Positions 6,316-27,479 of a DNA stretch of 35,872 nucleotides are shown piece after piece; position 1 is the first letter of the stretch; every line of letters starts with the position of its first letter. Location: assembly GCA_012689375.1 (NCBI GenBank), contig JAAZLO010000010.1:1-35872 (forward strand), written 5' to 3'. The position numbers and the translations under genes were made by a program. The notes under the pieces are model-generated. The model had not been told where the DNA came from. It saw nothing but the letters and a program-made list of their open reading frames with translations, and made no database searches. The stretch comes from Bacillota bacterium (lineage in GTDB: Bacteria > Bacillota > SHA-98 > UBA4971).

Positions 6316-6366
6316 TAGATAACTGATTTCGGCGAATTTAAAATACCGGGCCTTGGCGGGATATTG

Positions 6367-7854
6367 ATGAAGCGGTTTATCTTCGGTATAATAATCGGAA
6401 TTGTAGGGGTCTTGGCTCTGGTTTTAATCAGGCTTCCGTCAGTACAGGAGACTTCACAAACGGATAGTTTCTATGATCCTTATGGGAGCCGGTATCTTTA
6501 TGATTTTCAAAATGAATTTGAGCCTTTGGCTCCTCTCGTAGTTGATAAAAAAACCCCAGCCCTTCCCAGCTTATCTTTGGGAGATCCCGGAGCTGACGGG
6601 TTGGGTGCTTTTCTTTTGCCGGGTGAGGCAGTATCGCATCTATGGGATCGGGTAGCAAACCAACAGGAAAAAGAAAAGGAACTTTATAAAAAACCGGATC
6701 TGCCGGGTACGGGGTTTTCTGTCTTTACAGATATTAAACTTAATATTCCTGATACAATATATAATTTTCCTTCCCCTGAACAAGAACTCGGTATTCCTGA
6801 ACCTGGTAGTTTAGGGGTCGGGGGGAAATATTTTGTCCTATTGGATAATGTAATTAAGGCACACCCGCTTTGGGTGGAAGTAGTCCGCCTTGATAACGAT
6901 ATAGAGGCTTGTAAGGAGCAGTGGCGGACCTATGTCGATGAATCAGTATCGACTGAAGAAGATATATTTCAATGTTTAGGTGAGGCAGAAGAAGTTCTCG
7001 GTGAATGTACTGCTGTTGATTCCAATAAAAGCCCGGTATTATCCGGGTTTTCTGATGTATTTGAACCGGGTCTTGCTTTTATAGAATCTTCCCTCTCAGA
7101 GGAAATCAAAATCCGTATTGAGACCAAAAGAAATGAGATCAAGTCAAGTTTAGAGGACAAGCTATATGCGGAAAGAGCCCGCCTTAATAATAAATTTGAC
7201 AAATTTAAAGACAGGGTAATAAAAGAAACCTATGTAACCGTTATCAATATAAAAATGAAACTGCAGCTTTTAGATTTATCAGAGGATGAAAGGGTGTCTC
7301 TTGAAAAGGAGCTTGAATCAGTCAATAACATCATTGAAGAAAGGCTTGGTTCTGAACAAAAGGCATTGGATGATATTTATAAAGAATATGAAGCCTGGGA
7401 AATAGCTGCTGCTGAGGAAGAGCTTATAAGATATGAAAACGAGCAGGTCGCTTGGATGTATTCTGAGCTTGAGAAGGAAAGAGAAAGACTTTCCAAGGAA
7501 ATTAAAAATATGTTTTCCGGTATGGATAATAATGATTTGAAGATTCCCGATGCATGGAAGGAAGAAGTTTACAGAAGGAGGCTGATTGAACTCTCAGAAA
7601 GATATACAAAAACATCTGAGGAGTTTAAGAAAAAAGAGATTAGGTTTGCAGAGGAATTAGAAGATCTCACTTCCCGGCGTGAACAAGCCAAAGAGCGTAT
7701 TATGGGAGATATACGTGATGCAATATTAAACCTCGAAATTGGGCTGGGTATTTCTATGGAAACAGTTGAGGATAACCTTGGGTATGAAGAAAATAAATTT
7801 AAAAATAATGATGTTACGCTTGATATCATCAAAGAGATCCAGACTTACAAGTGA
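6367..7854 (+). CDS. Large Skp/OmpH-like coiled-coil envelope protein
   Basis: I do not recognise a named family with certainty. The 495-residue product starts with an uncleaved-looking membrane anchor (residues ~4-22), then ~130 residues of Pro/Gly-rich linker. At residues ~155-169 comes YFVLLDNVIKAHPLW, which closely resembles the first strand and 'v..aHP.y' motif of OmpH/Skp proteins. A long charged coiled coil follows (residues ~225-465), and the C-terminus DVTLDIIKEI resembles the OmpH tail 'DlTdeiik.l'. So it looks like a Skp-type hairpin with a much longer arm and an anchored extension. ATG 6367 chosen; an adjacent TTG at 6364 is an alternative. Directly follows ompH (51-bp gap) and precedes lpxD, which supports an envelope role. 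Skp relationship is an inference. Confidence 0.85.
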   Translation: MKRFIFGIIIGIVGVLALVLIRLPSVQETSQTDSFYDPYGSRYLYDFQNEFEPLAPLVVDKKTPALPSLSLGDPGADGLGAFLLPGEAVSHLWDRVANQQEKEKELYKKPDLPGTGFSVFTDIKLNIPDTIYNFPSPEQELGIPEPGSLGVGGKYFVLLDNVIKAHPLWVEVVRLDNDIEACKEQWRTYVDESVSTEEDIFQCLGEAEEVLGECTAVDSNKSPVLSGFSDVFEPGLAFIESSLSEEIKIRIETKRNEIKSSLEDKLYAERARLNNKFDKFKDRVIKETYVTVINIKMKLQLLDLSEDERVSLEKELESVNNIIEERLGSEQKALDDIYKEYEAWEIAAAEEELIRYENEQVAWMYSELEKERERLSKEIKNMFSGMDNNDLKIPDAWKEEVYRRRLIELSERYTKTSEEFKKKEIRFAEELEDLTSRREQAKERIMGDIRDAILNLEIGLGISMETVEDNLGYEENKFKNNDVTLDIIKEIQTYK

Positions 7855-9043: not shown

Positions 9044-10144
9044 CTGAAAATAATCGACAGATACATATCAAGAGAATTCATTCCGCCCTTTCTTGGATGT
9101 ACAGGTGGATTTATATTAATAATCCTCGCGAGCCGGTTATTTTGGCTCGCAGATTTAATTATTGTGAAGAAAGTTGCTGTTTTTACCGTTACCAAGCTGC
9201 TTTTTTATAAGATCCCGGATGCTGTTGCCCAGTCTGTCCCTATTTCCGTGCTTTGCGGGGCCATACTCTCACTCCTCCGTTTAGGGAAAGACAGTGAGCT
9301 GCTTGCTTTGCGGACAGGTGGGATTCGGGTTTTGAGGCTTCTTCTTCCTCTCCTTGCCTTGGGTTTTATGGCAAGCATTATCGTCTTCGCTCTTAACGAA
9401 CATATAGTTCCCCAGGCTAATCATGAGTTTGAAAATATAGTAAGAAAGATTATCCTACAGGAAGCCTTACCATCTGCTGAAGAAGATGTATTCTTTAAAG
9501 GTACCGGAGATCGGTTTTTTTATATAAGAAAGGTAGATGCTTCCTCACGGACATTAAAGGATGTTTTAGTGTATGAAATCCCTAAAGAAGGTTTACCGAG
9601 GATTATAACAGCTAAAACAGGGAAAGCAGACGGGGATGTATGGACTCTCTCAGATGGTATGGTACATGATTTGGATTCTGATGGATATGTGATTTATGAA
9701 GCCAGGTTCGGGGAAATGAGCCTGCATATGGATGAAAAACATGAATCCTTCATCGACGGGCAAAAAACCCCTGATGAAATGAACAGGAAGGAACTGAAAT
9801 CATACATTGATCTTTTCCAAACAGGCGGTATGAACGTTACTTCATTGGTTGTGGATTATAAATTTAAACTGGCTTTGCCTTTTGCTGCATTTATATTTGC
9901 CTTAACAGGGGCTCCCCTTGCCGTAGCTGCTGCAAGTCCTAAAACCGGCAGGTTTACCGGGATTGTTATCAGTGGGTGCATTGCCTTTGCCTACTATGCC
10001 TTTTCCTCAATATTGCGTTCTCTTGGGTGTTCACATATTTTATCACCGTTCATTGCGGCTTGGTCAGGTAACATTGTATTTGTTTTTGTGGGGATTGCAT
10101 TGATTATCCGTAGTGAACATACATTGCGGAGCGCCGGGATATAG
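9044..10144 (+). CDS. lptG: LptF/LptG family LPS-export permease, apparent CTG start
   Basis: Six-helix permease subunit of the LPS-extracting LptB2FG transporter in the inner membrane. From CTG 9044 the product (366 aa) begins with residue 1 then KIIDRYISREF, the classic LptF/G N-terminus, followed by TM1 (~13-37). TM2-3 follow (~50-116), then a periplasmic jellyroll (~125-265) and three C-terminal helices (~275-358). The first ATG/GTG/TTG in frame is GTG 9164, which would delete 40 residues including all of TM1; hence I extend to CTG 9044 (ATT 9041 is the alternative), behind AAGGTGAT. A one-base error joining the frame to ATG 9033 is also possible. Stops two bases before lptD. F versus G cannot be told apart here. 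Confidence 0.85.
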   Translation: MKIIDRYISREFIPPFLGCTGGFILIILASRLFWLADLIIVKKVAVFTVTKLLFYKIPDAVAQSVPISVLCGAILSLLRLGKDSELLALRTGGIRVLRLLLPLLALGFMASIIVFALNEHIVPQANHEFENIVRKIILQEALPSAEEDVFFKGTGDRFFYIRKVDASSRTLKDVLVYEIPKEGLPRIITAKTGKADGDVWTLSDGMVHDLDSDGYVIYEARFGEMSLHMDEKHESFIDGQKTPDEMNRKELKSYIDLFQTGGMNVTSLVVDYKFKLALPFAAFIFALTGAPLAVAAASPKTGRFTGIVISGCIAFAYYAFSSILRSLGCSHILSPFIAAWSGNIVFVFVGIALIIRSEHTLRSAGI

Positions 10145-10146
10145 CT

Positions 10147-12366
10147 ATGCATAAGAAAAAAACTGGTTGCGGGATAACTGTATTACAAAGGGTATTCCTT
10201 ATATCGATCTTAACACTTTTGATTGTTTTTTTACCAACAACAAGCTATGCTGATGATTCAAATAAAAGCGCGAAACTAACAGGCGATAGCTTAAGTGTTG
10301 ATTTGGAAAAAAGATTTGTATGTGCAAAAGGCAACATCGTCTTAAAATACAAAGAATTTGTAATCTATTGTGACTCGTTGGAAATAAATACGATATCAGG
10401 GGAAATCTTCGCCTCGGGGGACGTTAGATTTCACGACGGTGAAGATATGGTTCAAGGGGAAAGTCTTATTTATAACTTAATGGAAAGAACAGGGGCTTTG
10501 GAGTTAGGGACTGCAATTATTAAAGATAATCATATGAAAGGCCCAATATATGTTACAGGTTCTAAATTTCTGACTTTACCCGGTAAAATACAGATAGAAG
10601 GTGGAAGCCTTACCACATGTGATCTGGAGTCACCCCATTATCGGCTTGAGGCGGGGGAAATAGAAATTTATATCGGTGACAAGATGGAGCTTAGGAAGTT
10701 ATCATATTGGGAAGGTAATTTATGTATATTTCATTGGCCTTACCTTGTTATTCCGCTCAGGGAGGAAAACAGGCCGGAGATGCCCCAGATAGGGTATGGT
10801 ACGGAAGAGGGCTGGTTCATAAAAACTTCCTATAACTATTACAAAGATCCTTCCTTTCGCGGGTTTTTATATCTGGATTACTTTACTAGGTTAGGTTTAG
10901 GCCTAGGAGTAACACACTTCTACGATTTTGAAAACCTTGGCAGGGGTTCCTTATACGTGTATGAATTAATGAACAAAAATACAAACCATATCCAATCTGA
11001 TTTAAAATTATCCCACGAATTACCTATGATTTTCGGTACCACGTGTACTTTAGGATTTAATTATTCCAATAAAATGTCGCTCCCGGGGGTACCGGATATA
11101 GAAGTATCCGGTACAGCAAGATTAGGGTACAGTACAGATAAGGGATTTGCCGATCTTCTATTGGAAAGAACTCGAATGACAGGAACTGAAACATCAGATG
11201 AAGCGGGAATCAGTCTCCAAAGTAAATGGAAAGCATCTGAGGGTTTATCTCTTTCTGGAGATGTCAGGTTTTTTAATCGTCAGGTTTATGGTACAGGCGA
11301 AGGAAATGATAGATATCTAAATTATAAGGTTGAGGCTATAGAGAATTTCAAGCTTGCATCTGTCCGGGTTATAGCTGAGCAATATGTAAAATCTGTAGAA
11401 AGGCGGGAAAAAGAGAAAGAAGGAGAGGTTGATCCGCTTCCATACGAAACTATAGGCCGGGCTCCTGAAATAATTATCGAAGGCTATCGGCTTTCATTGG
11501 GGAGGTTCCCTTTAGAGATCCAATGGACTCTGGGGTTTGGGAGATATGCGGAAAGAGCCTCCGTATGGGAAGGTACTCCCGTTATCCGGGCGAACAAAAT
11601 CCATGCAGGAATTAATACTGTGGAACAAACATACGATCTTGGGACTGCTTTTAAAACGACGTTGTCAGCAGGAGCAAGCTTTGATAGATATACCACAGGT
11701 GACGAAAGATACGTGTTACAGGGGGTGCTGGCTTCGGAAGCCCAGATTTTAAAGGATGCGATAACCTTGTCGGGAAAATATGATTATTGCGGTGTTTTTG
11801 GCAATACACCCTTTGCATTTGACAAGGAAGAGCGGAAGGGCTTGCTAACTGGAAGATTGAATCTTTCCAAAGGGATTTTTACTGCATCGGTAGACTGCGG
11901 ATATGATTTTTATACGCAAACCTATGAGAATGTTACAGGGGGGGTTCGGCTTTCATCCGGTGGGCTTTGGTCAGTGGATGTTTCCGCTACTTATGATCCT
12001 ATATCTTTCTGTATGCAGGATGCTGTCGGAAGGCTGGAAGTAGATATGGAGGATAAATATTTTATTAAAGTAGGGGCAAGATACGATTTCTCAGCAGAAG
12101 CCTTAGATAGAATAGAAAGCCAGGTTGCGCTGGAAATATTTGATACCTGGGGTCTGGAATGGCGGTTAATATACGGACCTTCATCAAAATCTGGGCTTCC
12201 TTCTGTTCTTAGGGGGGATGTAGCAATAGTCAAAGATATGCATTGCCGGGAATTTCGACTTTCATACAACCATACTAAAAAGCAGGTATGGCTTGAATAT
12301 AAAATTAAGGCTTTCCCTTACGACAGTCTGAAATTCGGAGTGGCTGAGGAAGGCGTGCTTTTTTAA
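10147..12366 (+). CDS. lptD: LPS-assembly protein LptD
   Basis: Outer-membrane translocon that receives LPS from LptA and inserts it in the outer leaflet. The 739-residue product has a signal peptide (core ~16-32, TSYA before Asp). An OstA/LptA-like jellyroll follows (~40-140: GDSLSVDLEKRFVCAKGNI, then IFASGDVRF), then the conserved TTCDLESPHYRLEAGEIEIY segment and YWEGNLCIFHWPYLVIPL before the barrel. The rest (~220-739) is strand-rich and ends in F. It lacks the exact two-disulfide Cys pattern known from E. coli; the visible Cys residues are scattered. No LptE-like gene lies beside it, as is common outside Proteobacteria. Starts two bases after the previous stop. Confidence 0.93.
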   Translation: MHKKKTGCGITVLQRVFLISILTLLIVFLPTTSYADDSNKSAKLTGDSLSVDLEKRFVCAKGNIVLKYKEFVIYCDSLEINTISGEIFASGDVRFHDGEDMVQGESLIYNLMERTGALELGTAIIKDNHMKGPIYVTGSKFLTLPGKIQIEGGSLTTCDLESPHYRLEAGEIEIYIGDKMELRKLSYWEGNLCIFHWPYLVIPLREENRPEMPQIGYGTEEGWFIKTSYNYYKDPSFRGFLYLDYFTRLGLGLGVTHFYDFENLGRGSLYVYELMNKNTNHIQSDLKLSHELPMIFGTTCTLGFNYSNKMSLPGVPDIEVSGTARLGYSTDKGFADLLLERTRMTGTETSDEAGISLQSKWKASEGLSLSGDVRFFNRQVYGTGEGNDRYLNYKVEAIENFKLASVRVIAEQYVKSVERREKEKEGEVDPLPYETIGRAPEIIIEGYRLSLGRFPLEIQWTLGFGRYAERASVWEGTPVIRANKIHAGINTVEQTYDLGTAFKTTLSAGASFDRYTTGDERYVLQGVLASEAQILKDAITLSGKYDYCGVFGNTPFAFDKEERKGLLTGRLNLSKGIFTASVDCGYDFYTQTYENVTGGVRLSSGGLWSVDVSATYDPISFCMQDAVGRLEVDMEDKYFIKVGARYDFSAEALDRIESQVALEIFDTWGLEWRLIYGPSSKSGLPSVLRGDVAIVKDMHCREFRLSYNHTKKQVWLEYKIKAFPYDSLKFGVAEEGVLF

Positions 12367-12394
12367 TAGGCTGTTACAGCCGGAGGTGGAGGCT

Positions 12395-12970
12395 ATGTCA
12401 AGAAAACTTGTTATTCCGGCTATAGTCGTTGTTCTAGGCATTATATGCCTGTTTGTGACTTTAACGATTTATCGAAAAATAATACCGGGTAAGAACCCCT
12501 TGAATATAGAAAATTCACCAGGACATATTGACAAGGATTGGGATAAACCAGGGATTTTAGCGGAATCCACCCATTTCATAGGCAGATCAAAAGGTGAAAA
12601 GCGTTGGGAATTCAGGGCTGAGAGGACATTGTCGGCTGATGATAGTGACTGGATCAGGCTGGAAAATATTCAAGACGGTATTTTTTATAATGAAAATGAG
12701 GCCTGGGCATATTTCTCAGCGGATCAGGCTGTAGTTAATATAAAAACCGGCAACCTGGATTTGGACAATGTTATTTTTCGATCTTCGTCAGGCGACAGCT
12801 TGATTGCCCGCACCCTCACGTGGGATAAGGATTACGGTAAGGCTGTATTGGAAGGTAATGTCTGCATGAGGCAAAGCGAAAACTCTATACTTACATGTGA
12901 TCGGGCTGAATACACTCCCGGTGATAATATATTGGAATTCGTAGGGGAGATCGTATTTAAAATAATATAA
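12395..12970 (+). CDS. lptC: LptC-like LPS-export protein (copy 1)
   Basis: ATG 12395 is chosen because GGAGGTG at 12382-12388 sits six bases upstream; the in-frame GTG at 12386 overlaps that site. The 191-residue product has one N-terminal membrane helix (~6-26) and an extracytoplasmic domain of short strands with alternating hydrophobics (VIFRSSSGDSLIARTLTWD, AVLEGNVCMRQSENS, ILEFVGEIVFKII), as in the LptC/OstA jellyroll. LptC docks on LptB2FG and hands LPS to LptA. Sits between lptD and an lptA-like gene. Sequence conservation in LptC is low, so the call rests on topology, strand pattern and context. Confidence 0.8.
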   Translation: MSRKLVIPAIVVVLGIICLFVTLTIYRKIIPGKNPLNIENSPGHIDKDWDKPGILAESTHFIGRSKGEKRWEFRAERTLSADDSDWIRLENIQDGIFYNENEAWAYFSADQAVVNIKTGNLDLDNVIFRSSSGDSLIARTLTWDKDYGKAVLEGNVCMRQSENSILTCDRAEYTPGDNILEFVGEIVFKII

Positions 12971-12993
12971 GGGGGAAAGCGGGGAGAAAACCG

Positions 12994-13689
12994 GTGGGTA
13001 CCCTATTAAAATTAAAATCCAATAAATTTAGGTTATGTTTTATATCAGCCCTTATTGTCCTAATTTTATCTTTAGGTTTAGTATCGCATCAGGTTGAGGG
13101 GAAAGTGAAGGTAACTGCCTCGGAAAGGGTAATCCTCGATTTAGATACGGATATTGCAGTATTTGAAGGTAATGTGACGATTATTTATGAAAATATTAAA
13201 ATAACGGCTGATCGGGCCGAAGTAAAAGAACGAAAAATTGCTGTTTTAACGGGAAACACAAAACTTGTTCAAATTGATATGATCCTTACGGGTAAAAATT
13301 TTATTGTCTATATTAATGAAAATAAGATTATTGCAGAAGGTGATGTTTTTCTTATAAAAGGCGAAACTGAAATAGACGAAATACAAAACAGCCATGGTGA
13401 AGAGAATATTACAACTATTGCATGTGAAAAAATGATGCTTTTTACAAAAGAACGGGGGTTTACAGCAGAAGGTGATATAGAAGTGAGGCGGGGTCTATCC
13501 CTTGCTAAAGCAGATTATGCTACATATAAAGAAGAGGAAGAAAAAGTAATCTTAACAGGTAATGTAACTGCAGAGGGTAAAAACGGGGAAAAAATAGAAT
13601 GCAACATGTTAATATTCGGAACTGATAAAGATTATATGGAAGCAGAGGCAGAGGTGGTTTTCGAATTTTCCATTGACAGGGAAGATTAA
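12994..13689 (+). CDS. lptA: OstA/LptA-like periplasmic protein (copy 1)
   Basis: GTG 12994 lies seven bases after GGGGAG (12981-12986). The 231-residue product has a signal or anchor segment (~12-34) and then repeating strands of the LptA/OstA jellyroll: AVFEGNVTIIYENIKITADR, IAVLTGNTKL, KIIAEGDVFLIKGE, GFTAEGDIEVRRG, VILTGNVTAEGKNGEKIEC. The pattern 'G(d/n)V....g.....a..a.y' is that of LptA bridge proteins. Longer than the ~185-residue E. coli LptA, so it may stack more jellyroll strands. Last gene of the lptG-lptD-lptC-lptA set; a 140-bp gap with a promoter-like sequence follows. Confidence 0.85.
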   Translation: MGTLLKLKSNKFRLCFISALIVLILSLGLVSHQVEGKVKVTASERVILDLDTDIAVFEGNVTIIYENIKITADRAEVKERKIAVLTGNTKLVQIDMILTGKNFIVYINENKIIAEGDVFLIKGETEIDEIQNSHGEENITTIACEKMMLFTKERGFTAEGDIEVRRGLSLAKADYATYKEEEEKVILTGNVTAEGKNGEKIECNMLIFGTDKDYMEAEAEVVFEFSIDRED

Positions 13690-13829: not shown

Positions 13830-16403
13830 GTGCGGGGATTAATGAAAGAACGGTTCGCATCGGACCTTCTCGTTGTCATAATCCTGACTGTGCTTTTAGG
13901 CGCCTTTGTGGCAAAAGGTGTAGCCTTTGCAGTTAATATATACCTTGGCCAACAAGTTACAGGTGTCTTGGGCGATCTGGGAGAATACGATCTAATCCTT
14001 CATGTGCGTGAGGAATCCTCGGATGCTGCAGAAGTTGAAATCCAAAGAGTTATTTCATCCGATTTTAAAGAAGTCGGCATAAAAAAAGGCCCCATAGTCC
14101 TGGGAAAAAGCAATTTTTTTATAGGACTTCCCGATCATATCCGGAGCAGATCCACACTGGAAAACCTTGCAAAGGCTCTGACGGAACTTCCCGGAGCAAG
14201 CGGGGTGACATTTATAATTGAACCCAGGCTTACCTTAACAGGGGTTGAACCTGGTGCCTTTCATATTATCCTAAGTGAAGCCGAAAAAATAGACGGGGTC
14301 AGGTTCTGTTTCCGGGATGGGGGCAGGATTGCAGTTTTATTAAAGCCTGATGCTGATATGCGGCAGGTATCCAATGATCTTACTGCTCTGATCGAAAGGT
14401 ACCGCCTCATCGAGGTAAGGTTTCCTGTCGGGTATGAAATGGAGGATTCTGTAGGATCAGGTGAGGCCTATATTAAAAAATTATTATCGTCAGCGGGAGC
14501 GGGTTTTGCCCGGGACATTACACGCCGCGGTGGAAATCAGGATCTCGCTGATTTGTTTAATACTTTAACTGAAATGAAAAGGTTCCTTAGAAACTATTCG
14601 GCGTATGCCGATATTTCCATTACCGATAATACGATTCTTGAAACAGGTGATACAGTATTATTGTTACCTTGGGAGGATCCAACATCTAAAAAGACCCAGG
14701 ATATACCGAAGGAAGATGGCTTATTGGCTGTTATTGAAAAAATCAACAATGGAACAGTGCAGGGCATGGTAATTCAGGGGGATACCGGTGATATTTCAGA
14801 ACCTAATCTTAAGGTATTTTCCGTTGATAGAAATAACAAGGCCAAGGATTATATCGGAACTGCCGTTGTGGTAAGTGAAAGTAAGAAAATCGGGTACGCG
14901 GTAGACGAGAGCATTCGACTTTTATATGAGCTAGAAGAGTTTAGGGGTAATGCTTATCTTGCTGCAATTAATACCTTGGATATATTAGGTATGTACGATG
15001 AAACCATAGACAGGCTGATTAATGTCCAAAGGGCCCTTGAAATTTCAATGGAGTCTCTTGGAAGAACCTCTGACAGGACAGTCGGCCGGCAGGAAACAGC
15101 TGCCTTAGAAAAGGCGATAGCCGGAGCTATGGGTATTATGGATTCACTGGAATCTGCAGTCCGGGGAATAGACACATTCGAAACTCAGGCAAAGCAAATC
15201 ATTGAAATATTATCCTTAAAGGAAGATGAACTCCATGAAGATATCAGATCTTACGGAGAAGTATCTACAGAGCTCCAAGAAAAAATTTATATGGTAAGTA
15301 ACCTTTTGGATCTCGCAGGAATCAAGGCTTTGGAAAGGGCAAAGGCAATTGATGAATTTGTGGAAAGCGCAAGACCTGTTACATCCCAATTAATAAAATG
15401 GAAATCTGACCTCGAAAGTCTCTTCCGCAGGATATCAGGAATCAGGCAGGTGTTAGCTACAGATCAGGCCGGTCAAATAATATCCGAAATGATGGATGCC
15501 ACAAATAATGTCCTTATTCAAGCTCAGGCAATGGATATCCCAAGTATGGAAAGGGCTATTAATGAGGCTGCAAAAAACCTGGAAGCTGTTAAGACAATTG
15601 ATACAGAGGCAATAATCCGGGAGCTTCAGGAAGTAAAAGCATCATTGCCTAAACTTCGTGATGAGGAAGTAGGGAGATCCATTTGTCTGATTGATCGATA
15701 TATAGGCGGTGAAGTGATTCCAGGTGATAGTCTTCAAGTTATGGTCGATAAAAGTACAGATCAAAACGAGTTGAAGGTTTTGGCAAGGGAGATGTTCGGA
15801 AAGGAAGTCCGTGTATATACAGGTCCTATAGGATTTTTAGAACCCGGAGTCAGAGGTGAGGTATACAGGGTCCTTCGGGAAGCAAGGGCTTCAATTACAG
15901 CCATAGTTTTAATTATTGTAACCCTTTTCGCACTTATCTTAGATCATGCCGCTGTCATCAGCGCAATGAAGGAATTCAATTCGGGTTTAGGTGTCATTTA
16001 TTCCGTAATTGTCGGCACAGTGATTCTTATTTCACAATTTATTATTACCGGGGCAAAAGTCCCGTATGTTAGTCATTGGCATGTAGCCGGAATCGGGGCC
16101 TTGTTAGGTTTTATAACAGCGACCCAATCAAATAAGATCAGCCCCTTACCAAAGGATGAATTGATTGCCGGGATTGTCATGGGTTTAACATATACACAGA
16201 TAATGCGTGAAATAGTGGTACCTTCTTCGAGGCCCGGGCTTCTGTCACTTCTTAATAAGCCTAAGACTGTACTAAGATTGAAAAGGAGGGGGGACCTTGG
16301 GGACAGGTTCTCATTCCGTAATACAAAGCCGAGATGTGCCGGTTCTGGAAATCCGGAATCTATCAAAAAGTTATGGAAAGAATCAGGCTCTATCAGGGAT
16401 TGA
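13830..16403 (+). CDS. Large membrane protein with MacB/LolE-like topology, partner of an ABC ATPase
   Basis: Not recognised. GTG 13830 follows AGGAGG (13817-13822) by seven bases. The 857-residue product has one N-terminal helix (~9-34) and a ~650-residue extracytoplasmic region. That region has an alpha/beta first half (~40-330) and a heptad-rich helical second half (~370-640). At the C-terminus are three to four helices (~690-710, ~720-742, ~753-768, ~777-793). One helix, a large outer domain, then a helix cluster is the layout of type VII ABC exporters (LolC/E, MacB, FtsX), though the outer domain is far larger and I see no clear sequence match. Its last ~35 codons overlap the ATPase gene by 107 bp, so it is probably that ATPase's permease. 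Role in lipid or lipoprotein traffic is inferred from location only. Confidence 0.85.
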   Translation: MRGLMKERFASDLLVVIILTVLLGAFVAKGVAFAVNIYLGQQVTGVLGDLGEYDLILHVREESSDAAEVEIQRVISSDFKEVGIKKGPIVLGKSNFFIGLPDHIRSRSTLENLAKALTELPGASGVTFIIEPRLTLTGVEPGAFHIILSEAEKIDGVRFCFRDGGRIAVLLKPDADMRQVSNDLTALIERYRLIEVRFPVGYEMEDSVGSGEAYIKKLLSSAGAGFARDITRRGGNQDLADLFNTLTEMKRFLRNYSAYADISITDNTILETGDTVLLLPWEDPTSKKTQDIPKEDGLLAVIEKINNGTVQGMVIQGDTGDISEPNLKVFSVDRNNKAKDYIGTAVVVSESKKIGYAVDESIRLLYELEEFRGNAYLAAINTLDILGMYDETIDRLINVQRALEISMESLGRTSDRTVGRQETAALEKAIAGAMGIMDSLESAVRGIDTFETQAKQIIEILSLKEDELHEDIRSYGEVSTELQEKIYMVSNLLDLAGIKALERAKAIDEFVESARPVTSQLIKWKSDLESLFRRISGIRQVLATDQAGQIISEMMDATNNVLIQAQAMDIPSMERAINEAAKNLEAVKTIDTEAIIRELQEVKASLPKLRDEEVGRSICLIDRYIGGEVIPGDSLQVMVDKSTDQNELKVLAREMFGKEVRVYTGPIGFLEPGVRGEVYRVLREARASITAIVLIIVTLFALILDHAAVISAMKEFNSGLGVIYSVIVGTVILISQFIITGAKVPYVSHWHVAGIGALLGFITATQSNKISPLPKDELIAGIVMGLTYTQIMREIVVPSSRPGLLSLLNKPKTVLRLKRRGDLGDRFSFRNTKPRCAGSGNPESIKKLWKESGSIRD

Positions 16404-17073
16404 TATAAAAATTATGTCAGGGGATTCAGTGGTGGTTACAGGCCCATCCGGGTGTGGCAAATCCACTCTTCTAAGATGTATTGTCCGATTGATTAATCCT
16501 GATTCAGGAAGAATTATAGTGGAAGGGAAAGACATAACAGATCTTTCTTATTTAAATTTATTGGATATCCGCAGGCGCATTGGATTTGTTTTTCAGCGCT
16601 CTAACCTTATCCAAAGGCTTTCTGCCATGGAGAATGTCATTCTTCCGTTGTTGGCTGCAGGTGTATGCCGGGACGAAGCAGATGAAAGAGGAATCCGGGC
16701 ATTGGGACGTGTCGGGCTTGCCGGGAATATAATTTACAGGAAGCCTCCGCAATTATCAGGAGGTGAATGTCAGCGTGTGGCAATAGCCAGGGCTTTGGCA
16801 CCTGAGCCAGTTTTGATGCTTTGGGATGAACCTACCGCTTCCCTTGATCCCATCCTCGTTATGGAAGTCCTTGAAGTCATGGAAAGCCTTATAAGACACA
16901 GTGAAACTGCAATGGTTATTGTAACCCATGAAATGAGGTTTGCGCTTCGCGCCGCTAATCGGCTTATTCTCCTCAACGAAGGTAGAATAGTGGAGCAAGG
17001 TACCCCTGTTCAGATATTCAGTAATCCTAAATCCGAATTAGGAATGGGGTACAGTCGTTTGGTTAACTTATGA
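16297..17073 (+). CDS. ABC transporter ATP-binding protein, partner of the upstream membrane protein
   Basis: TTG 16297 is chosen because AGGAGGG (16284-16290) lies six bases upstream and the product then carries a full ABC domain. Of 258 residues: Walker A GPSGCGKST (~49-57), Q-loop FVFQ (Q100), signature LSGGE (~153-157), Walker B VLMLWDEP with Glu178, and H-loop VTHEM (H211). All catalytic elements are intact. By sequence it is closest to GlnQ-type (polar amino acid) and LolD/MlaF-like ATPases, yet no amino-acid permease or binding protein is nearby. Overlap with the preceding 857-residue protein argues they form one complex. A 138-bp gap separates it from lpxC. Confidence 0.92.
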   Translation: MGTGSHSVIQSRDVPVLEIRNLSKSYGKNQALSGIDIKIMSGDSVVVTGPSGCGKSTLLRCIVRLINPDSGRIIVEGKDITDLSYLNLLDIRRRIGFVFQRSNLIQRLSAMENVILPLLAAGVCRDEADERGIRALGRVGLAGNIIYRKPPQLSGGECQRVAIARALAPEPVLMLWDEPTASLDPILVMEVLEVMESLIRHSETAMVIVTHEMRFALRAANRLILLNEGRIVEQGTPVQIFSNPKSELGMGYSRLVNL

Positions 17074-17211: not shown

Positions 17212-18099
17212 TTGGGTAAAACAGGGTTGAATTATCAGACTACAATATTAAAACCTATGAGGTATGAAGGGCTGGGGTTACATACAGGTAAACGATCACG
17301 TGTTACTGTGTTGCCCGCTTTGCCTGATCAAGGCGTATGCTTTGAAAGATATGATCTCCCAGAAGCTCAGGTTATACCTGTTTCCCCAGGAAATATCAAA
17401 CGCTCACGGCGTGCCACTGATCTGGAATGTAACGGGGTGACCGTTCGTACGGTAGAGCACATTATGGCAGCAATTGCCTGGTCAAACATTGATAACATCA
17501 TTGTCCGGCTGGAGGGTGAGGAGGTACCTTTAGGAGATGGGAGCGCCCTTACCTACGTAGATCTTTTTGAGGAAGCGGGTTTGGCAGTCAGTGATGTGAG
17601 AAGGCAGGAGATTAACGTTGCATGTCCCCGAAGAGTTACCCGGGGTATGAGCCACCTTATAGCTTTACCCTACGAAGGAACTAGAGTAACTTTTTTATTT
17701 CTTCACAATAGGTTTCAACAGGGGGATGGATATCCGAATTCCGAATACATAGATACAGAAGTGACTCCGGAGACGTTTAAAAAAGAAATAGCTCCCGCTC
17801 GAACCATAGGGTTTCAATGGGAACTTGGGACTATCCAAGAACAGGGGCTTGCCCTTGGGGCAACTCTCCGACAGGCGGTAATTATCGGAGAAGACGGGTA
17901 TATAGGCTGTACCAGGTTTTCTAATGAGGCATGCCGTCACAAGGCTTTGGATCTGCTGGGGGATGTTGCTCTACTTGGCCGAATCCAGGGACATTTTATT
18001 GGCATAGGTTCCGGGCATTCCATGAACCATGAGCTTATCAAAATGATTGCCGGTGATTTAGAAGTTAAAAGGGGTGTGCAGACTGGAAGTTGCAATTGA
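17212..18099 (+). CDS. lpxC: UDP-3-O-acyl-N-acetylglucosamine deacetylase LpxC
   Basis: Committed, zinc-dependent step of lipid A synthesis. From TTG 17212 the product is 295 residues and carries the expected N-terminus (YQTTILKPMRYEGLGLHTG). The zinc ligands are visible: His83 in TVEHIMAA, His243 and Asp247 in RHKALDLLGD. The catalytic His269 is in GSGHSMN, and Thr-Ile replaces the usual Thr-Phe in the ARTIGF motif. Length fits stand-alone LpxC, with no FabZ fusion. The ribosome site before TTG is weak; no better start exists upstream without a stop. Its end overlaps fabZ by 26 bp, suggesting coupled translation. Confidence 0.96.
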   Translation: MGKTGLNYQTTILKPMRYEGLGLHTGKRSRVTVLPALPDQGVCFERYDLPEAQVIPVSPGNIKRSRRATDLECNGVTVRTVEHIMAAIAWSNIDNIIVRLEGEEVPLGDGSALTYVDLFEEAGLAVSDVRRQEINVACPRRVTRGMSHLIALPYEGTRVTFLFLHNRFQQGDGYPNSEYIDTEVTPETFKKEIAPARTIGFQWELGTIQEQGLALGATLRQAVIIGEDGYIGCTRFSNEACRHKALDLLGDVALLGRIQGHFIGIGSGHSMNHELIKMIAGDLEVKRGVQTGSCN

Positions 18100-18529
18100 T
18101 ATAAAAGAAATCCAAAGGGTATTACCTCACAGGTATCCGTTTCTTTTAATTGACAGAATTATAGAATTTGAACCTGACAAACGTGTTGTTGGTATTAAGT
18201 GTGTCAGCTGCAATGAGCCTTTTTTTCAAGGGCATTTTCCAGGAAATCCGGTGATGCCGGGGGTTTTAATTATTGAAGCAATGGCCCAGGTAGGAGCATA
18301 TGCTTCATTGGATCATGTGAGGGCCATGGGTAAAATTGCATATCTTGCCGGAGTGGACAGGGCAAGATTTCGGAAACCTGTAATTCCTGGTGATGTCCTC
18401 AGAATTGAAGTGGAAATAGTAAAGATCCGCGGCAACCTGGGAAGGCTTGCGTGTTCATCATATGTCGGGGATGAGCCGGTTGCAGTTGCAGAGCTTATAT
18501 TTGCTTTAGTAGACGGGGAAGAAGAATAG
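18074..18529 (+). CDS. fabZ: 3-hydroxyacyl-ACP dehydratase FabZ
   Basis: Dehydrates beta-hydroxyacyl-ACP in fatty acid elongation and so competes with LpxA/LpxD for hydroxyacyl-ACP. Hot-dog fold of 151 residues with the diagnostic HRYPFLLIDRI, catalytic His54 in QGHFPGNPVMPG and Glu68 in LIIEAMAQ. Start uncertain: GTG 18074 is listed, but AAAAGGGGTG (18067-18076) would serve CTG 18083 at six bases; the true N-terminus may be three residues shorter. Overlaps lpxC and is followed by lpxA 38 bp later; the lpxC-fabZ-lpxA order is conserved in many diderms. Confidence 0.96.
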   Translation: MCRLEVAIDIKEIQRVLPHRYPFLLIDRIIEFEPDKRVVGIKCVSCNEPFFQGHFPGNPVMPGVLIIEAMAQVGAYASLDHVRAMGKIAYLAGVDRARFRKPVIPGDVLRIEVEIVKIRGNLGRLACSSYVGDEPVAVAELIFALVDGEEE

Positions 18530-20228: not shown

Positions 20229-21324
20229 CATTTACGGTGCATATCTTGCTGAGGAGTTGATCCGGTTAAACCCTGATATCAGGGTTTTTGGAATCGGGGG
20301 TCCTGAAATGAGAAAGAGGGGCGTTTCAATCCTTGAAGACCCGACTTCCTTTTCCGCTGTTGGGTTCACCGAAATCCTGTCAAGCCTTTCTTTTCATCGC
20401 AAAACCCTGAACAGGGCCCTTCAGGAATTAATTAAGGCCTCACCTGATTGTCTTGTGCTGATCGATTTTCCTGAGTTTAATATGAGATTAATGAGGCAAG
20501 CGGTTAAACACAATATCCCAAGAATTTACCTATTTCCCCCGACAGCATGGGCATGGCGTAGAGGACGTGCCGAAACTCTTGCAAATTCAGGTGCAATCAT
20601 TGCCTCAGTTTTCCCTTTGGAGGCAGATACTTATCTGAGGGCAGGAGCCGATGTTAGATTCGTAGGGCACCCTCTTTTGGATCTTGTGGATCCTTCGAAT
20701 CCCGAAATTAAGGAATCTTTACGTAAAGATATGGGGTTAGATTTCAAAGAAGTTATTGGGATTTTACCCGGGAGCCGGGATCAGGAAGTAAGAAGGATCC
20801 TCCCTACGATGTTAAAGGCGGCTGCTTTGATAAAAGAAAAAAGACCTGGGGTGGGATTTGTACTCCCTTTGTCCCACACTGTATCCTGGGGTACAGTTGA
20901 AGAAAATATTATAAAGTCAGGTCTCCCCGTACGCATTGTATCCGGGGATTCCCATCTTTGTATGGCTGTATCAGATGTGCTTACAGTGGCTTCAGGCACT
21001 GCAACCATGGAAGCTACTATAGTGGGAACCCCGATGGTTGTTGTTTATAAAACTTCCAGGCTGACCTATTTATTAGCCAGATCGTTTATAAATATACCCT
21101 TCGTTTCATGGCCTAACATTCTAGCGGAAAGGCGCATTGTACCTGAGCTTTTACAAAGAAAAGCAAAGCCCAGGGCAATAGCTGGGGAAGTCTTTACAAT
21201 GTTGAATAATCCCGCACTTTTGTTAAAAATACAAAATGATTTGGCTGAAGCCCGGAATAAGCTTGGTTCACCTGGTGCTATTATGAAAATAGCTAAGCTA
21301 ATATTGGAGGTGGCACGCAAGTGA
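20191..21324 (+). CDS. lpxB: Lipid-A-disaccharide synthase LpxB
   Basis: GT19 glycosyltransferase joining lipid X and UDP-2,3-diacylglucosamine. TTG 20191 gives the standard N-terminus (KIMMSAGEASGD) and follows AGAGGTGG by six bases; the open frame extends back to 20167 inside lpxI but those residues are not LpxB-like. The 377-residue product is GT-B in shape. Motifs seen are SAGEASGDIYGA, DFPEFNMRL, YLFPPTAWAWRRGR, FVGHPLLD, GILPGSRDQEVRRILP and ASGTATMEATIVGTPMVVVYK, all expected of true LpxB. It is the canonical one of three LpxB-family proteins here. Confidence 0.95.
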   Translation: MKIMMSAGEASGDIYGAYLAEELIRLNPDIRVFGIGGPEMRKRGVSILEDPTSFSAVGFTEILSSLSFHRKTLNRALQELIKASPDCLVLIDFPEFNMRLMRQAVKHNIPRIYLFPPTAWAWRRGRAETLANSGAIIASVFPLEADTYLRAGADVRFVGHPLLDLVDPSNPEIKESLRKDMGLDFKEVIGILPGSRDQEVRRILPTMLKAAALIKEKRPGVGFVLPLSHTVSWGTVEENIIKSGLPVRIVSGDSHLCMAVSDVLTVASGTATMEATIVGTPMVVVYKTSRLTYLLARSFINIPFVSWPNILAERRIVPELLQRKAKPRAIAGEVFTMLNNPALLLKIQNDLAEARNKLGSPGAIMKIAKLILEVARK

Positions 21325-22718
21325 AAGAAAGCTGTGCCACTGTTATAATTGTAGCAAACAGCCCAGGTGAAATCAGCGGGTGGGCCTCACCTGTCGTAGC
21401 CGGTTTGCGTGCTTTGGAAAATAAGATTACGCATAGGTTGAAAAGAATATTTATTGTAGTTATATTGCCACCCTGTGCTTTTGCCACCGGTAATGAAGCA
21501 GTTGTGGCCAAGAATATCCAAGGGGTGGATGCCATTGTTACGCCTTCTGAATACCTGAGCTTTGCTATACTGGGTTCATTGCCGGAAGGCTTAAAGCGCT
21601 TTATGGCGGGAGGGAAAGGGAAAGCCCGGCAAGGAGTTGTTTTACATCTTGGTGGGGATCATCTCCATTCGGCTATTATTGCCAGAAGGCTTGGGTTCCC
21701 CGCAATTGCATATAGTGATCGCACAATAAAGTTCCAGAATCGATTTAAAAAAATACTAGTTGAAGACTCAAGAGTGGCTAAGAAACTGGGAGAAAAAGGA
21801 GTCCCTGATGAGAAGATAAGTATTGTTGGCAATCTTATGGTTGATAGTGTTTCAGGGGGTAAAATTCAAAAGAATATAAAAGACGTATTAGGAATCACCG
21901 GGGATAAACAGGTAGTATGCCTTTTACCCGGGAGCAGAAAGCAAGAGATTCGATATGTAATGCCTTTTTTTCTAAGGGTTGCGGAAATTATGGACAGATT
22001 CTGCGAAAATACAGAATTCGTTATCCCCCTTTCTCCCTTTGTTAATATGGATTTGATTCAATCAGCCCTGATCGATTCAAGTACCGAAATCGACAGGTAC
22101 GGAAACAAAGCAAAGAATAGGGGGGCAAAACTTGAAGCTTCCACAGGTGTACTCTCCGAATTAAAAGGTATGGGGAAGGGTGGTCTTCTGTCGACAGCAA
22201 CTATCAAGACTTCCGGGGGTGTACAAGTCCTTGTGGTTTTGGGATCCCGTTATTCCGTTATGGCTGCCTCTGATATTGCATTATGTATTCCAGGTTCTGT
22301 TACTGCAGAATTAGGATGCCTCGGTATCCCCACCGTAGTATCTTTGCCCCTTAATATACCTGAAGAAATCCCGCTTACCGGTGTGTTTGAATATATTGGG
22401 AGATTACCTGTAATCGGGGGCCCCATTAAAAGGGTGGCATTACAGAATGTGAATAAACGTATAGAGTTTACTGCAATCCCCAATAAAAGGCAAAGGAAAT
22501 CCATTATGCCTGAAATCCGCGGAGTTCTCACTGCTCAGGATGTTTCTATAAAGGCTTTGGAGCTCTTGCAGGATACAAAAACACGGGATAGAATCTCTTT
22601 AGAATTAAAGGCCGCTATGGGCAGGCCGGGAGCGGCGGATAAAGTTGCTTCCACAGTATTTAATATGCTTACAATGACTGGAGGCCGGTATTTTGTGCCG
22701 ACGAAAGAGTCCGGTTAG
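21321..22718 (+). CDS. LpxB-like GT-B glycosyltransferase, diverged
   Basis: GTG 21321 overlaps the lpxB stop, with GGAGGTGG (21306-21313) seven bases upstream. The 465-residue product resembles LpxB in the donor half (VVCLLPGSRKQEIRYVMPFF; IPGSVTAELGCLGIPTVVSLP) but opens with ANSPGEISGWASPVV instead of SAGEASGD. That 'gPGE...W..PVv' form is found in LpxB-related proteins of cyanobacteria and diderm Firmicutes. About 80 residues longer than LpxB, with an insertion around residues 255-310. The acceptor is unknown; position between lpxB and msbA suggests it glycosylates the lipid A-type product or makes a different glycolipid. Overlaps the next gene by 26 bp. Confidence 0.87.
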   Translation: MKESCATVIIVANSPGEISGWASPVVAGLRALENKITHRLKRIFIVVILPPCAFATGNEAVVAKNIQGVDAIVTPSEYLSFAILGSLPEGLKRFMAGGKGKARQGVVLHLGGDHLHSAIIARRLGFPAIAYSDRTIKFQNRFKKILVEDSRVAKKLGEKGVPDEKISIVGNLMVDSVSGGKIQKNIKDVLGITGDKQVVCLLPGSRKQEIRYVMPFFLRVAEIMDRFCENTEFVIPLSPFVNMDLIQSALIDSSTEIDRYGNKAKNRGAKLEASTGVLSELKGMGKGGLLSTATIKTSGGVQVLVVLGSRYSVMAASDIALCIPGSVTAELGCLGIPTVVSLPLNIPEEIPLTGVFEYIGRLPVIGGPIKRVALQNVNKRIEFTAIPNKRQRKSIMPEIRGVLTAQDVSIKALELLQDTKTRDRISLELKAAMGRPGAADKVASTVFNMLTMTGGRYFVPTKESG

Positions 22719-24460: not shown

Positions 24461-25615
24461 ATGCGCGCCATGATAATGGCTGCAGGGGTAGGGTCCCGAT
24501 TGGAGCCCCTTACAATTAATGTGCCGAAACCTATGGTACCTGTAATTAATAAACCTGCTATGGAACATATTATTAATCTTTTAAAAAGCCATGGGATAAC
24601 AAAGATTGTGGTTAACCTGTGGTACCTCCCGCAGCATATTGAAGCTTACTTCGGCGATGGCAGTAATTTCGGAGTAAAATTGCGTTATTCCCGTGAGCGG
24701 GAGCTCCAGGGGACGGCAGGAGGTGTGCTTTTCGCCGAGGATCTTCTCCTTTGCCACAGTTGGTCAGGGCAGATGGAGACAACGCCCTCCCAAGGGACAT
24801 TTATCCTTATGGCAGGGGATGCCTTAACCACTGCAAATCTAACAAAACTTGTGAAATTCCATAAATCCCGGGAAGCTTTGGTAACAATAGGGCTCAAGCG
24901 TGTAACCGATGTATCTGGATTTGGAATAGTTGTTACGGACAAACAGGGGAGAATCCTTAAATTTCAGGAAAAACCCTTACCTTCCGAAGCAGAAAGTGAT
25001 CTTGCCAATACTATGATATACGTATTTGAGCCTGAGATCTTTAAGTATATCCCACCCTATGGGAAACCTGATTTCGGTCGTGATATATTTCCTTTATTAA
25101 TTCAGGAGAATGTACCTTTTTACGGTTTTCCCATAGATGAATACTGGTCTGATATCGGGACCCTTGCCCAGTATCATAATACACACAAGGATATCCTCTG
25201 CGGCAATGTGGGTATTGCCTTACCGGGTAAAGAAATAAAACCCGGGATTTTTATATCTGAAGATACAAGAATAAGTTGTGATACGGAGTTACGTCCGCCT
25301 GTATTTATAGGGAAGCATGTAAAAATAGATAAAAACACAATTATAGGACCGTACACTGTTATAGGGGATAGGTGTGAAATTTCTGAGCATGTATATATAT
25401 CCGGGAGTATAGTCTGGAATAATACAAAGATTGGATCGGGAGCAAACCTTAAGGATTGTATTGTAGGAAGTGATTGCTGTCTTGCTGCCGGTTCCTCTCT
25501 TGGTGAAGGTGTTGTGCTCAGTGATGAATGTATTGTGGAAGAAGGCAGTATAATCAGGGAAAATGTAAGGATAGATCCGGGGAGGATTATCAGAAGAAAG
25601 GCGGCAAGGCGGTGA
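24461..25615 (+). CDS. Sugar-1-phosphate nucleotidyltransferase with beta-helix tail
   Basis: Makes an NDP-sugar from a sugar-1-phosphate and NTP. ATG 24461 follows GGGGGGAG by about six bases; the frame is open upstream to 24377 but that part lies in msbA. The 384-residue product begins RAMIMAAGVGSRLEPLT then PKPMVPV, the nucleotide-binding signature and its Lys. ILMAGDALT is the metal-binding Asp region and DEYWSDIGTLAQYHN the typical end of the Rossmann-like domain. Residues ~255-384 are hexapeptide repeats. Looks like ManC/GDP-mannose or glucose-1-phosphate (NDP) pyrophosphorylases; the sugar is not predictable. Context suggests a sugar for an outer-membrane glycan. Its stop overlaps the next start (GTGA). 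Confidence 0.88.
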   Translation: MRAMIMAAGVGSRLEPLTINVPKPMVPVINKPAMEHIINLLKSHGITKIVVNLWYLPQHIEAYFGDGSNFGVKLRYSRERELQGTAGGVLFAEDLLLCHSWSGQMETTPSQGTFILMAGDALTTANLTKLVKFHKSREALVTIGLKRVTDVSGFGIVVTDKQGRILKFQEKPLPSEAESDLANTMIYVFEPEIFKYIPPYGKPDFGRDIFPLLIQENVPFYGFPIDEYWSDIGTLAQYHNTHKDILCGNVGIALPGKEIKPGIFISEDTRISCDTELRPPVFIGKHVKIDKNTIIGPYTVIGDRCEISEHVYISGSIVWNNTKIGSGANLKDCIVGSDCCLAAGSSLGEGVVLSDECIVEEGSIIRENVRIDPGRIIRRKAARR

Positions 25616-26250
25616 GAAGCCCGATCCCTAAGACAAACAAATCAAGATGGCCTATTATGATTATCGTATGTGTATGTGTCATCGTTTTGGGATTGGGAAT
25701 TTATCATTATATTATACCGGCGAGGGATAATGGCAAAGAAAGTGATACTGCTGACAAAGGCGCAACCCCTGTTTTAGGTAGATCAGAACCCGATGAATTT
25801 GGGAGAGAACTCAAACCCGGTATAACCCTGGAAGGAACAAAAATAATCCTGCCTGAACCTGGTGGGGCTTTGGGATGGGAATTCTGTGCCGAAAGAATTG
25901 AATATGATTCTAAAAACAACCATGTTTATCTTGTGGGGGCCGAAGGGGAAAAGTTTATAAACGGTAAGCCGGATATTAAAATTCAAGCCGGATATATAGG
26001 ATTGGATTTAGAGTCTGATCAAATAGATCTTAAGGACCGCGTTATAATAGAATCTAAACAGGACCAGGGCTTCAGTGCAGAATGTGCAGTATGGGATTCC
26101 TGTGCAAGAAAGTTTAAGGCATATGGAAACGTCCTATATAAAAATAACTCCTCTGAGATTTCTGGAGACGAAATGGAAATTGATTTAGAATTTGAAAAAG
26201 CCCGGGTTAAAGGAAATGTAAGGCTTCATATTTATGCATCCTCGGATTAA
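25612..26250 (+). CDS. lptC: LptC-like LPS-export protein (copy 2)
   Basis: GTG 25612 overlaps the stop of the nucleotidyltransferase; the open frame extends to 25528 but that part is within the preceding gene. The 212-residue product has a short basic N-terminus, one membrane helix (~14-37), a flexible linker (~40-75) and then a strand-rich domain. Strand motifs are GWEFCAERIEYDSKNNHVYL, KIQAGYIGLDLESDQIDLKD, FSAECAVWDSCARKFKAYGN and ISGDEMEIDLEFEKARVKGN. This is the LptC/OstA jellyroll pattern, and membrane anchoring separates it from LptA. Second such gene in the window; the first (12395) is only distantly similar. Confidence 0.78.
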   Translation: MRSPIPKTNKSRWPIMIIVCVCVIVLGLGIYHYIIPARDNGKESDTADKGATPVLGRSEPDEFGRELKPGITLEGTKIILPEPGGALGWEFCAERIEYDSKNNHVYLVGAEGEKFINGKPDIKIQAGYIGLDLESDQIDLKDRVIIESKQDQGFSAECAVWDSCARKFKAYGNVLYKNNSSEISGDEMEIDLEFEKARVKGNVRLHIYASSD

Positions 26251-26276
26251 GGGGGGTTGCCGATCAGGCAGAATGT

Positions 26277-27479
26277 ATGGTGGTTTTTTTAAGTAACGGC
26301 CATGGTGAAGATTTGATTGCAACCATGATTGCCCGGGAAGTGAGTATAAAACGTGAATCTTTTGATATAGCTGGTTTTCCTTTGGTGGGTCTCGGGAAGG
26401 CGTACGCAGATGCAGACATTAAAGTGATTGGGGTCCAGAAAACCATGCCCAGCGGAGGCTTTTTGAGACACGGTTTATCCATAATGCTAAAGGATATTAA
26501 GGCAGGACTTATAGGCCTTACCTTAAAGCAAATAAAACATCTGAAATCACTGAAGGAAAATGTGAGGTTGATTGTGTCGGTAGGGGATATTCTTCCATTA
26601 TTTCTCGGAGGCCGCTACGTTAAGGCGCCGATGTTGTTTCTTTCCACTGCAAAGTCTGAATATATAAGGGGGCACCTTGGTATTGAATGCAGGCTTATGC
26701 GTAAATATGCAGATCTTGTTTTGGCAAGGGATGAAAAAACAAAAACAGCCCTTTCTGAACTGAACGTACCTGCGGAATATCTAGGAAACGTTATGATGGA
26801 CGGGTTTTCAATAACCGGTGAAAATTTTGGGCTTACCCTTCGAAAAAAGGTGGTAGGTATTCTCCCCGGTTCCAGGGAAGAAGCATATAGGAATATAGGG
26901 ACGATTCTCGGAGTTATTCAACACCTTGTCAGGCTCAGCAATAATAATTTGGATTTCATAGTAGGGCTTGCGCCCAATCTTGATGAAGAAAGACTCAGGA
27001 GTGCAGTTGACAAAGGCGGATGGCACTATAAAATACAAGATCCAGAGCACGGAAGGCAAGGTGTTACCGGATGTATTTACCTGGATTCAGGGGAGGAGAC
27101 ACCTTGTGTTATAGTATCCCAGGGTTGGTTCGGAGATGTCTTAAACATCAGTGATATTGTAATTGGTCTGTCCGGGACAGGTAATGAACAGGCAGCAGGG
27201 CTTGGTAAGCCAGTTATAACCTTTCCCACCGAGGGGCCTCAATTTAGTTTGAAGTTCGCTCTTGCACAGAAGAGGCTTTTGGGTGAAGCGGTATCATTTG
27301 TTGAATCCGGCGATGCCCAGGATGTTGCATCCGAGGTAATGAGAATTCTCGGAGACTCTACGCTCATTGCCGAAATGCGTGAGGCAGGTTACATGAGAAT
27401 GGGAAAGCAAGGGGCGGCTGCGAGAATAGCGGAAATTATTATTAATTACCTCGAGGCAGGAAATTGGGAGGGATCATAA
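26277..27479 (+). CDS. LpxB-related GT-B protein (TIGR03492-like)
   Basis: The 400-residue product opens with VVFLSNGHGEDLIA, the signature start of the lipid-A-disaccharide-synthase-related family (TIGR03492) known from cyanobacteria and Deinococcus. Other GT-B features are LSTAKSEYI, YLGNVMMDGF (LpxB has vGHPlld), VVGILPGSREEAYRNI and IGLSGTGNEQAAGLGKPVITFP. Function is not established for the family; it is assumed to be a glycosyltransferase on a lipid acceptor. The start is uncertain: ATG 26277 has no clear ribosome site (GGGGGG at 26251 is 20 bases off), and GTG 26280 is possible. Between lptC and lptA, which ties it to lipid export. Confidence 0.85.
   Translation: MVVFLSNGHGEDLIATMIAREVSIKRESFDIAGFPLVGLGKAYADADIKVIGVQKTMPSGGFLRHGLSIMLKDIKAGLIGLTLKQIKHLKSLKENVRLIVSVGDILPLFLGGRYVKAPMLFLSTAKSEYIRGHLGIECRLMRKYADLVLARDEKTKTALSELNVPAEYLGNVMMDGFSITGENFGLTLRKKVVGILPGSREEAYRNIGTILGVIQHLVRLSNNNLDFIVGLAPNLDEERLRSAVDKGGWHYKIQDPEHGRQGVTGCIYLDSGEETPCVIVSQGWFGDVLNISDIVIGLSGTGNEQAAGLGKPVITFPTEGPQFSLKFALAQKRLLGEAVSFVESGDAQDVASEVMRILGDSTLIAEMREAGYMRMGKQGAAARIAEIIINYLEAGNWEGS

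Follow-up and report, generated by a model that had tools for sequence, protein, structure and literature searches.

A diderm-restricted ABC permease–ATPase pair in an outer-membrane gene cluster of Bacillota, with a type VII-like layout and a predicted type I-like coupling motif

Four groups of ATP-binding cassette (ABC) systems offer the closest comparisons for the subject of this study, a permease–ATPase gene pair in a 35,872-nucleotide stretch of DNA (hereafter the window) from a Bacillota bacterium of the GTDB lineage SHA-98; UBA4971 (assembly GCA_012689375.1, contig JAAZLO010000010.1, positions 1 to 35,872). Type VII systems (MacB, LolCDE, FtsEX, YbbAP) are exemplified by MacB, whose permease has four transmembrane (TM) helices, a periplasmic domain between TM1 and TM2, long TM1 and TM2 helices and a C-terminal minor coupling helix; its periplasmic Porter domain, named for a similarity to AcrB, carries beta-alpha-beta motifs on either side of the Sabre domain (PMC5985334). 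Type I importers dock on their ATPase through coupling helices formed by the EAA motif (PMC3150292). MlaEFD, which in diderm Firmicutes includes a long trans-envelope MlaD (PMC10665443), resembles the pair in being an ABC system that belongs to the diderm envelope and has an extended helical part in the periplasm, and differs from it in that the pair has no MCE domain or relation to MlaE and a partly complementary distribution. LptB2FG shares with it a gene cluster and the character of an ABC machine working on the periplasmic side, yet is encoded by separate genes that co-exist with the pair.

The permease gene (positions 13830..16403, + strand, GTG start) encodes 857 residues of no known family and overlaps by 107 bp the gene of an ABC ATPase (16297..17073, + strand, TTG start, 258 residues); a listing of open reading frames (ORFs) places both exactly where an earlier note on this DNA had them, overlap included. 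That note had further described the ATPase as intact and the pair as lying between Lpt and lpx genes, and both descriptions hold: Walker A (GPSGCGKST), the signature (LSGGE), Walker B (MLWDEP) and the H-switch (VTHE) can all be read, and the pair is preceded by Lpt genes and followed by lpxC-fabZ-lpxA. On balance we consider it somewhat more likely than not that the pair is a diderm-specific ABC machine that turns ATP hydrolysis into movement of a periplasmic apparatus for outer-membrane assembly; the earlier suspicion that an ABC system so far unrecognised is linked here to the outer membrane is supported.

Forty neighbourhoods of permease relatives were read. Relatives down to ~17% identity retain permease and ATPase in this order, far beyond what chance would give. 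The ATPase gene comes after the permease wherever the contig extends far enough, and in three genomes of one family (G201, G308, G309) the two are fused as a single protein of 967-976 residues, while G310, placed in the genus of G309, encodes them in different frames. Conserved adjacency and natural fusion thus show, as genomic evidence, that permease and ATPase belong together as one predicted inner-membrane ABC machine. The overlap of 107 bp is peculiar to the genus and stems from a C-terminal tail of the permease that is likewise genus-level; in relatives the two genes overlap by 4 bp or by other lengths, or are separated by a small gap. The surroundings are also conserved, with LptA, LptC or LpxD-type genes usually upstream and lpxC as the next gene downstream in nearly all LpxC-positive loci read. 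Named relatives are metagenome-assembled genomes of Bacillota, including a Limnochordia bacterium. A scan of genome contigs with the single permease protein retrieved no relatives and was repeated with an alignment of close relatives, and a plasmid search gave no match.

All counts that follow refer to a sample of 300 genomes spread evenly over the phylum. The permease was found by tblastn in 58 of them, and a profile of 55 relatives recovered the identical 58 at E below 1e-30; weak profile matches in other genomes, located in the coiled coil or the C-terminal motif, were not counted as members. With LptF/LptG (PF03739) over cut-off as the diderm marker (73/300 genomes), the permease occurs in 56 of the 73 positive genomes and in two of the 227 negative ones (Fisher p 8e-43, phylogenetically uncorrected). 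Equal frequency in monoderm relatives, which the earlier note had named as evidence against an envelope role, was thus looked for and not found. The assembly is fragmented in both negative carriers (G235, G281), and LptD, LptB and OmpM-type genes lie at the locus of G235. Of the 17 positive genomes that seem to lack the permease, G003 and G169 have a contig that ends ahead of the pair; the other 15 comprise ten genomes with MlaE (families f31, f61 and f72), which are probably Negativicutes, together with G095, G237, G260, G051 and G304. Within this sample, then, the pair is confined to diderm members of the phylum.

Its position beside lpxC, in the order LptA-pair-lpxC-fabZ-lpxA over many genera, invites the reading that the pair is a dedicated part of lipid A/lipopolysaccharide production or export, for example a flippase or a regulator. 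Co-occurrence with one Lpt permease points the same way. When each Lpt permease was scored against both window copies, classed by the higher bit score and tallied by hand, LptG1 (the copy in the adjoining block) was present in 54/58 pair-positive and 3/15 resolvable pair-negative diderms, and LptF2 in 44/58 and 13/15, respectively. Presence of the pair tracks LptG1 and not LptF2, a lead only, given that few clades are involved and the p-values ignore shared ancestry. However, 13 genomes that carry the pair lack LpxC (families f56, f63 and f74), so that the pair does not depend on lipid A; conversely, the pair is missing from a number of LpxC-positive genomes, and the window cluster already has MsbA-like and LptB-type genes of its own. 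A dedicated lipid A role is therefore distinctly unlikely.

The permease has no Pfam or NCBIfam match at E<=1e-3 and no sequence relative in the PDB, where a profile search returned coiled-coil noise only. Its anatomy was read from hydropathy, the alignment of relatives and an AlphaFold2 (AF2) model built from a 55-sequence alignment (mean pLDDT 83.4, pTM 0.55). Hydropathy and alignment give one N-terminal and three C-terminal TM helices, and the model agrees. TM1 would form a long helix (residues 9-47, positions 13854..13970, + strand, as are all features here) combining the membrane span with a stalk-like extension, followed by two tandem beta-alpha-beta-beta-alpha-beta (ferredoxin-like) units (residues 55-128 and 133-197, 13992..14420, pLDDT mostly >90), a beta-rich domain (residues 258-349, 14601..14876) and a region of antiparallel long helices or coiled coil (residues 350-605, 14877..15644). 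A conserved junction (SLPxLxDEEIGRSIxLIDxY..) and a further beta-alpha-beta unit (residues 634-672) then lead into TM2 (15630..15845), so that beta-alpha-beta units flank the predicted periplasmic part. TM2 (674-716, with invariant D705), TM3 (718-740) and TM4 (749-770; together 15849..16139) precede a C-terminal block in which the model places short helices at 775-783, 788-799 and 804-812, and the last ~42 residues are the low-confidence tail noted above (16275..16400). Mean net charge is +3.8 for the TM2-TM3 loop, +0.2 for the TM3-TM4 loop and +3.2 for the C-terminal block; the strongly positive TM2-TM3 loop is therefore assigned to the cytoplasm. Prediction thus supports a permease with four TM helices, both ends in the cytoplasm, and a large periplasmic apparatus of ~630 residues between TM1 and TM2, much as first described from the sequence (one N-terminal helix, a large outer part with a coiled coil, then three to four helices).

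A further suggestion, that the coiled coil reaches across the periplasm, has fared less well. The predicted long helices at 350-412, 418-473 and 480-535 comprise 63, 56 and 56 residues, with shorter helices after them, and the longest would reach ~9 nm (1.5 A per residue). The helical region is also the least conserved part of the protein and varies from ~100 to 260 residues across the family, so that together with the limited helix length there is no support for a coil that bridges the periplasm throughout the family. In a short homologue occurring in nature (616 residues; AF2 pLDDT 85.5, pTM 0.62) the overall order of elements is kept, but the helical part is much shorter. This part is shortest in the lineage of family f9 (loci L065, L082 and L083), where an aminotransferase-like gene (458-459 residues, by reading) lies directly upstream of the permease. 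The idea that this lineage encodes the coil as a separate gene was rejected, as that upstream gene reads as an aminotransferase.

The most conserved block of the permease lies at its C-terminal end (residues 772-812, 16143..16265), in a 44-residue segment of constant length across the family with the consensus xEIxAGxALGLxYxxIMREIVIPxGRPGLLxLLN. By alignment and profile comparison this block is the EAA coupling motif of type I importers, an element that the earlier note had missed. PF00528 (BPD_transp_1) is the sole Pfam family to recur widely among the members (27/55 at E<=1, best 2.9e-4). The window permease itself matches it at E 0.07 and 13.3 bits, below the cut-off of 26.4, with residues 700-808 (within TM2-TM4 plus the EAA block) on profile positions 43-114 of 184. 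Where the family profile gave weak C-terminal matches in unrelated genomes, all nine permease ORFs checked belonged to PF00528, and hhalign of the family against these BPD permeases returned a probability of 95.9 (E 5.3e-9), a value not fully independent of the profile matches by which the nine had been found. The ATPase (ABC_tran in Pfam, E 8e-33) resembles type I importers too, scoring best among NCBIfam models against GlnQ and lying nearest on average to the PAAT ATPases; its true start is uncertain, N-termini ahead of the stretch VLEI..LSKSYGK being unconserved.

Taken at face value, the EAA motif and this nearness by score to GlnQ would suit an ordinary nutrient importer that lies in the cluster by chance. 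Such an importer is highly improbable. The permease ends at the EAA motif, so that the two core TM helices that follow it in type I permeases (the last ~70 profile positions) are missing and the BPD core is incomplete; it carries instead a giant periplasmic domain; no gene for a substrate-binding protein was seen in the window cluster; and the strictly diderm distribution and conserved gene position speak against chance.

Importer-type coupling would also suit a retrograde phospholipid transporter standing in for MlaEFD, in which lipid would be pulled inward from the outer to the inner membrane. MlaE is indeed rarer with the pair (9/58) than in pair-negative diderms (10/17; p 8e-4, which ignores shared ancestry), and Mla is reported to be missing from Halanaerobiales and to occur in few Limnochordia (PMC10665443). 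The contrast, however, is confounded by phylogeny through one large pair-negative clade, and strict replacement of Mla is weakened by the nine genomes that have both systems and by G095, G237 and G260, which have neither and are nonetheless LpxC-positive. With the lack of an MCE domain or MlaE kinship added, a retrograde transporter is an unlikely explanation. LolA (PF03548) was found in none of the 75 diderm genomes, although a diverged LolA could escape detection; a published study nevertheless reports Lol genes in Halanaerobiales (PMC5007114). In view of these published genes, replacement of Lol by the pair cannot be concluded.

The proposed machine would operate as follows. The C-terminal EAA helix pair is predicted to dock on the ATPase, and two permeases and two ATPases would assemble. 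ATP binding would then close the ATPase dimer and the EAA helices would move; TM2-TM4, together with the long helices of TM1 and TM2, would relay their motion to the periplasmic apparatus. This apparatus may work on the periplasmic side by mechanotransmission, as in MacB or FtsEX, by way of a different coupling element. The work itself would most likely be the handling, coordinated with the Lpt pathway, of an envelope lipid or some other constituent of the outer membrane; that the cargo is a lipid or lipoprotein is something we infer.

Several observations weigh against this reading. Foldseek against the PDB gave no match at E<=1e-3 for the window permease or for the short homologue, which leaves a type VII assignment without a significant fold match; by the same result the earlier note is not refuted, since it had named as counter-evidence a fold shared with a known transporter of unrelated substrate. 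Profiles do not match type VII: of the families to which the earlier note had looked for kinship (LolE/MacB/FtsX and MlaE), hhalign gave probabilities of 0.98% for MacB/Lol, 0.19% for FtsX and 0.14% for MlaE, no relation in any case. An ATPase tree with long branches leaves the class of the ATPase unsettled, and the EAA motif together with the GlnQ-type ATPase score might be read as signs of inward transport instead. Independence of the co-occurrence counts is not given, as most pair-negative genomes seem to form a single clade, and the LptG1 link has exceptions on both sides (the pair without LptG1 in G027 and G047; LptG1 without the pair in G051, G304 and G260). Finally, envelope lipid as cargo is the leading guess from gene context alone.

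The likeness to type VII systems that had been noted at the outset survives in part. The layout of TM1, periplasmic domain and TM2-TM4, the long TM1 and TM2 helices and a C-terminal contact region such as that of MacB (PMC5985334) are shared; a profile relation to FtsX, LolCE or MacB is not, and the periplasmic part is far larger, with a long helical coil. PF02687 gave no match for the window permease and was not among the families shown in the Pfam scan of members. One may nevertheless ask whether the pair is a highly diverged true member of the MacB/FtsX/LolCE class, moving lipoproteins or lipids, whose EAA-like ending arose by convergence. Besides the matching topology, the best hhalign match to MacB/Lol, non-significant as it is, falls at the TM4 end in both. 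For the full permease the top Foldseek matches are mostly helical noise. For the short homologue, RND pumps rank first (E from 2e-3 upwards, prob ~0.25) and ACT domains come behind them, none significant; the ferredoxin-like units thus show a weak, non-significant relation to ACT and RND-porter folds, and RND porters are the namesake fold of the MacB Porter domain. These matches and the build of that domain are suggestive of a type VII-like arrangement, a hint and not a demonstration. Set against them are hhalign probabilities of under 1% where BPD permeases reach 95.9, a main coupling site that appears to be C-terminal and EAA-type and not between TM2 and TM3, and separate FtsX-family genes in the same genome. 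True type VII membership is therefore unlikely, and the diderm-specific machine with EAA-type coupling remains the reading we prefer.

Within a superfamily that is itself known, the permease is a new family, and it unites layout and coupling in an unusual way. A bolder proposal, tentative and a little short of an even call, is that the pair represents a distinct ABC structural type, in which a type VII-like four-helix permease with a fold absent from the PDB would be driven through a C-terminal type I-like EAA element, and which would constitute an unrecognised outer-membrane assembly part in diderm Bacillota except Negativicutes-like lineages. A permease that joins a type VII layout to type I coupling would inform on the relations among ABC permease classes. 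Diderm Bacillota are, moreover, central to the debate on bacterial gain or loss of the outer membrane, and the pair, lying in an outer-membrane operon, found in diderms only and kept where lipid A synthesis has been lost, is a candidate for a missing part of the outer-membrane assembly apparatus. No description of it was found in the open-access papers searched, a scope outside which the work of Taib et al. 2020 on Firmicutes outer-membrane clusters falls; one study names three other uncharacterised cluster genes, including DUF3084, without this pair.

The window cluster includes TamB, BamA, a Skp-like protein, LpxD, LptG, LptD, LptC and LptA, then, after the pair, LpxC, FabZ, LpxA, LpxI, LpxB and an MsbA-like ABC protein, and further second LptC/LptA copies, LptB, LptF and an SLH-porin, the names Skp, LpxD, MsbA and LptB being assigned by reading of the sequence. 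The pair's usual neighbours are here the upstream block LptG1-LptD-LptC-LptA (9164..13689, + strand) and, downstream, lpxC with fabZ (17212..18529, + strand). There are accordingly two LptC-like and two LptA-like genes (12386-13689 and 25528-28060), with one LptG and one LptF in separate blocks. A 496-residue coiled-coil ORF (6364-7854) with an N-terminal hydrophobic stretch and no Pfam match recurs between BamA/Skp and LpxD in several relatives. LpxB is followed by a second LpxB-related protein of 465 residues (21321-22718), conserved in relatives and retained beside the pair in LpxC-negative genomes.

In five relatives, LptG runs in frame into LptD to give ORFs of ~1050-1095 residues (L177:10044-13283:+, L078:4258-7536:+, L069:12292-15477:-, L079:11884-15042:- and L081:9555-12842:-), and between the parts lie one basic and one hydrophobic stretch and an AxA-like site, as if signal peptidase cleaved a polyprotein here. 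Four of these ORFs were scanned and all show a clear LptF_LptG match; LptD-like/LptA-like matches in the second part are weak and occur in two of the four. In the single-contig genome G163, LpxC occupies two overlapping frames near locus L066 (C1:2530119-2530926:-), reflecting a frameshift, a pseudogene or an assembly error.

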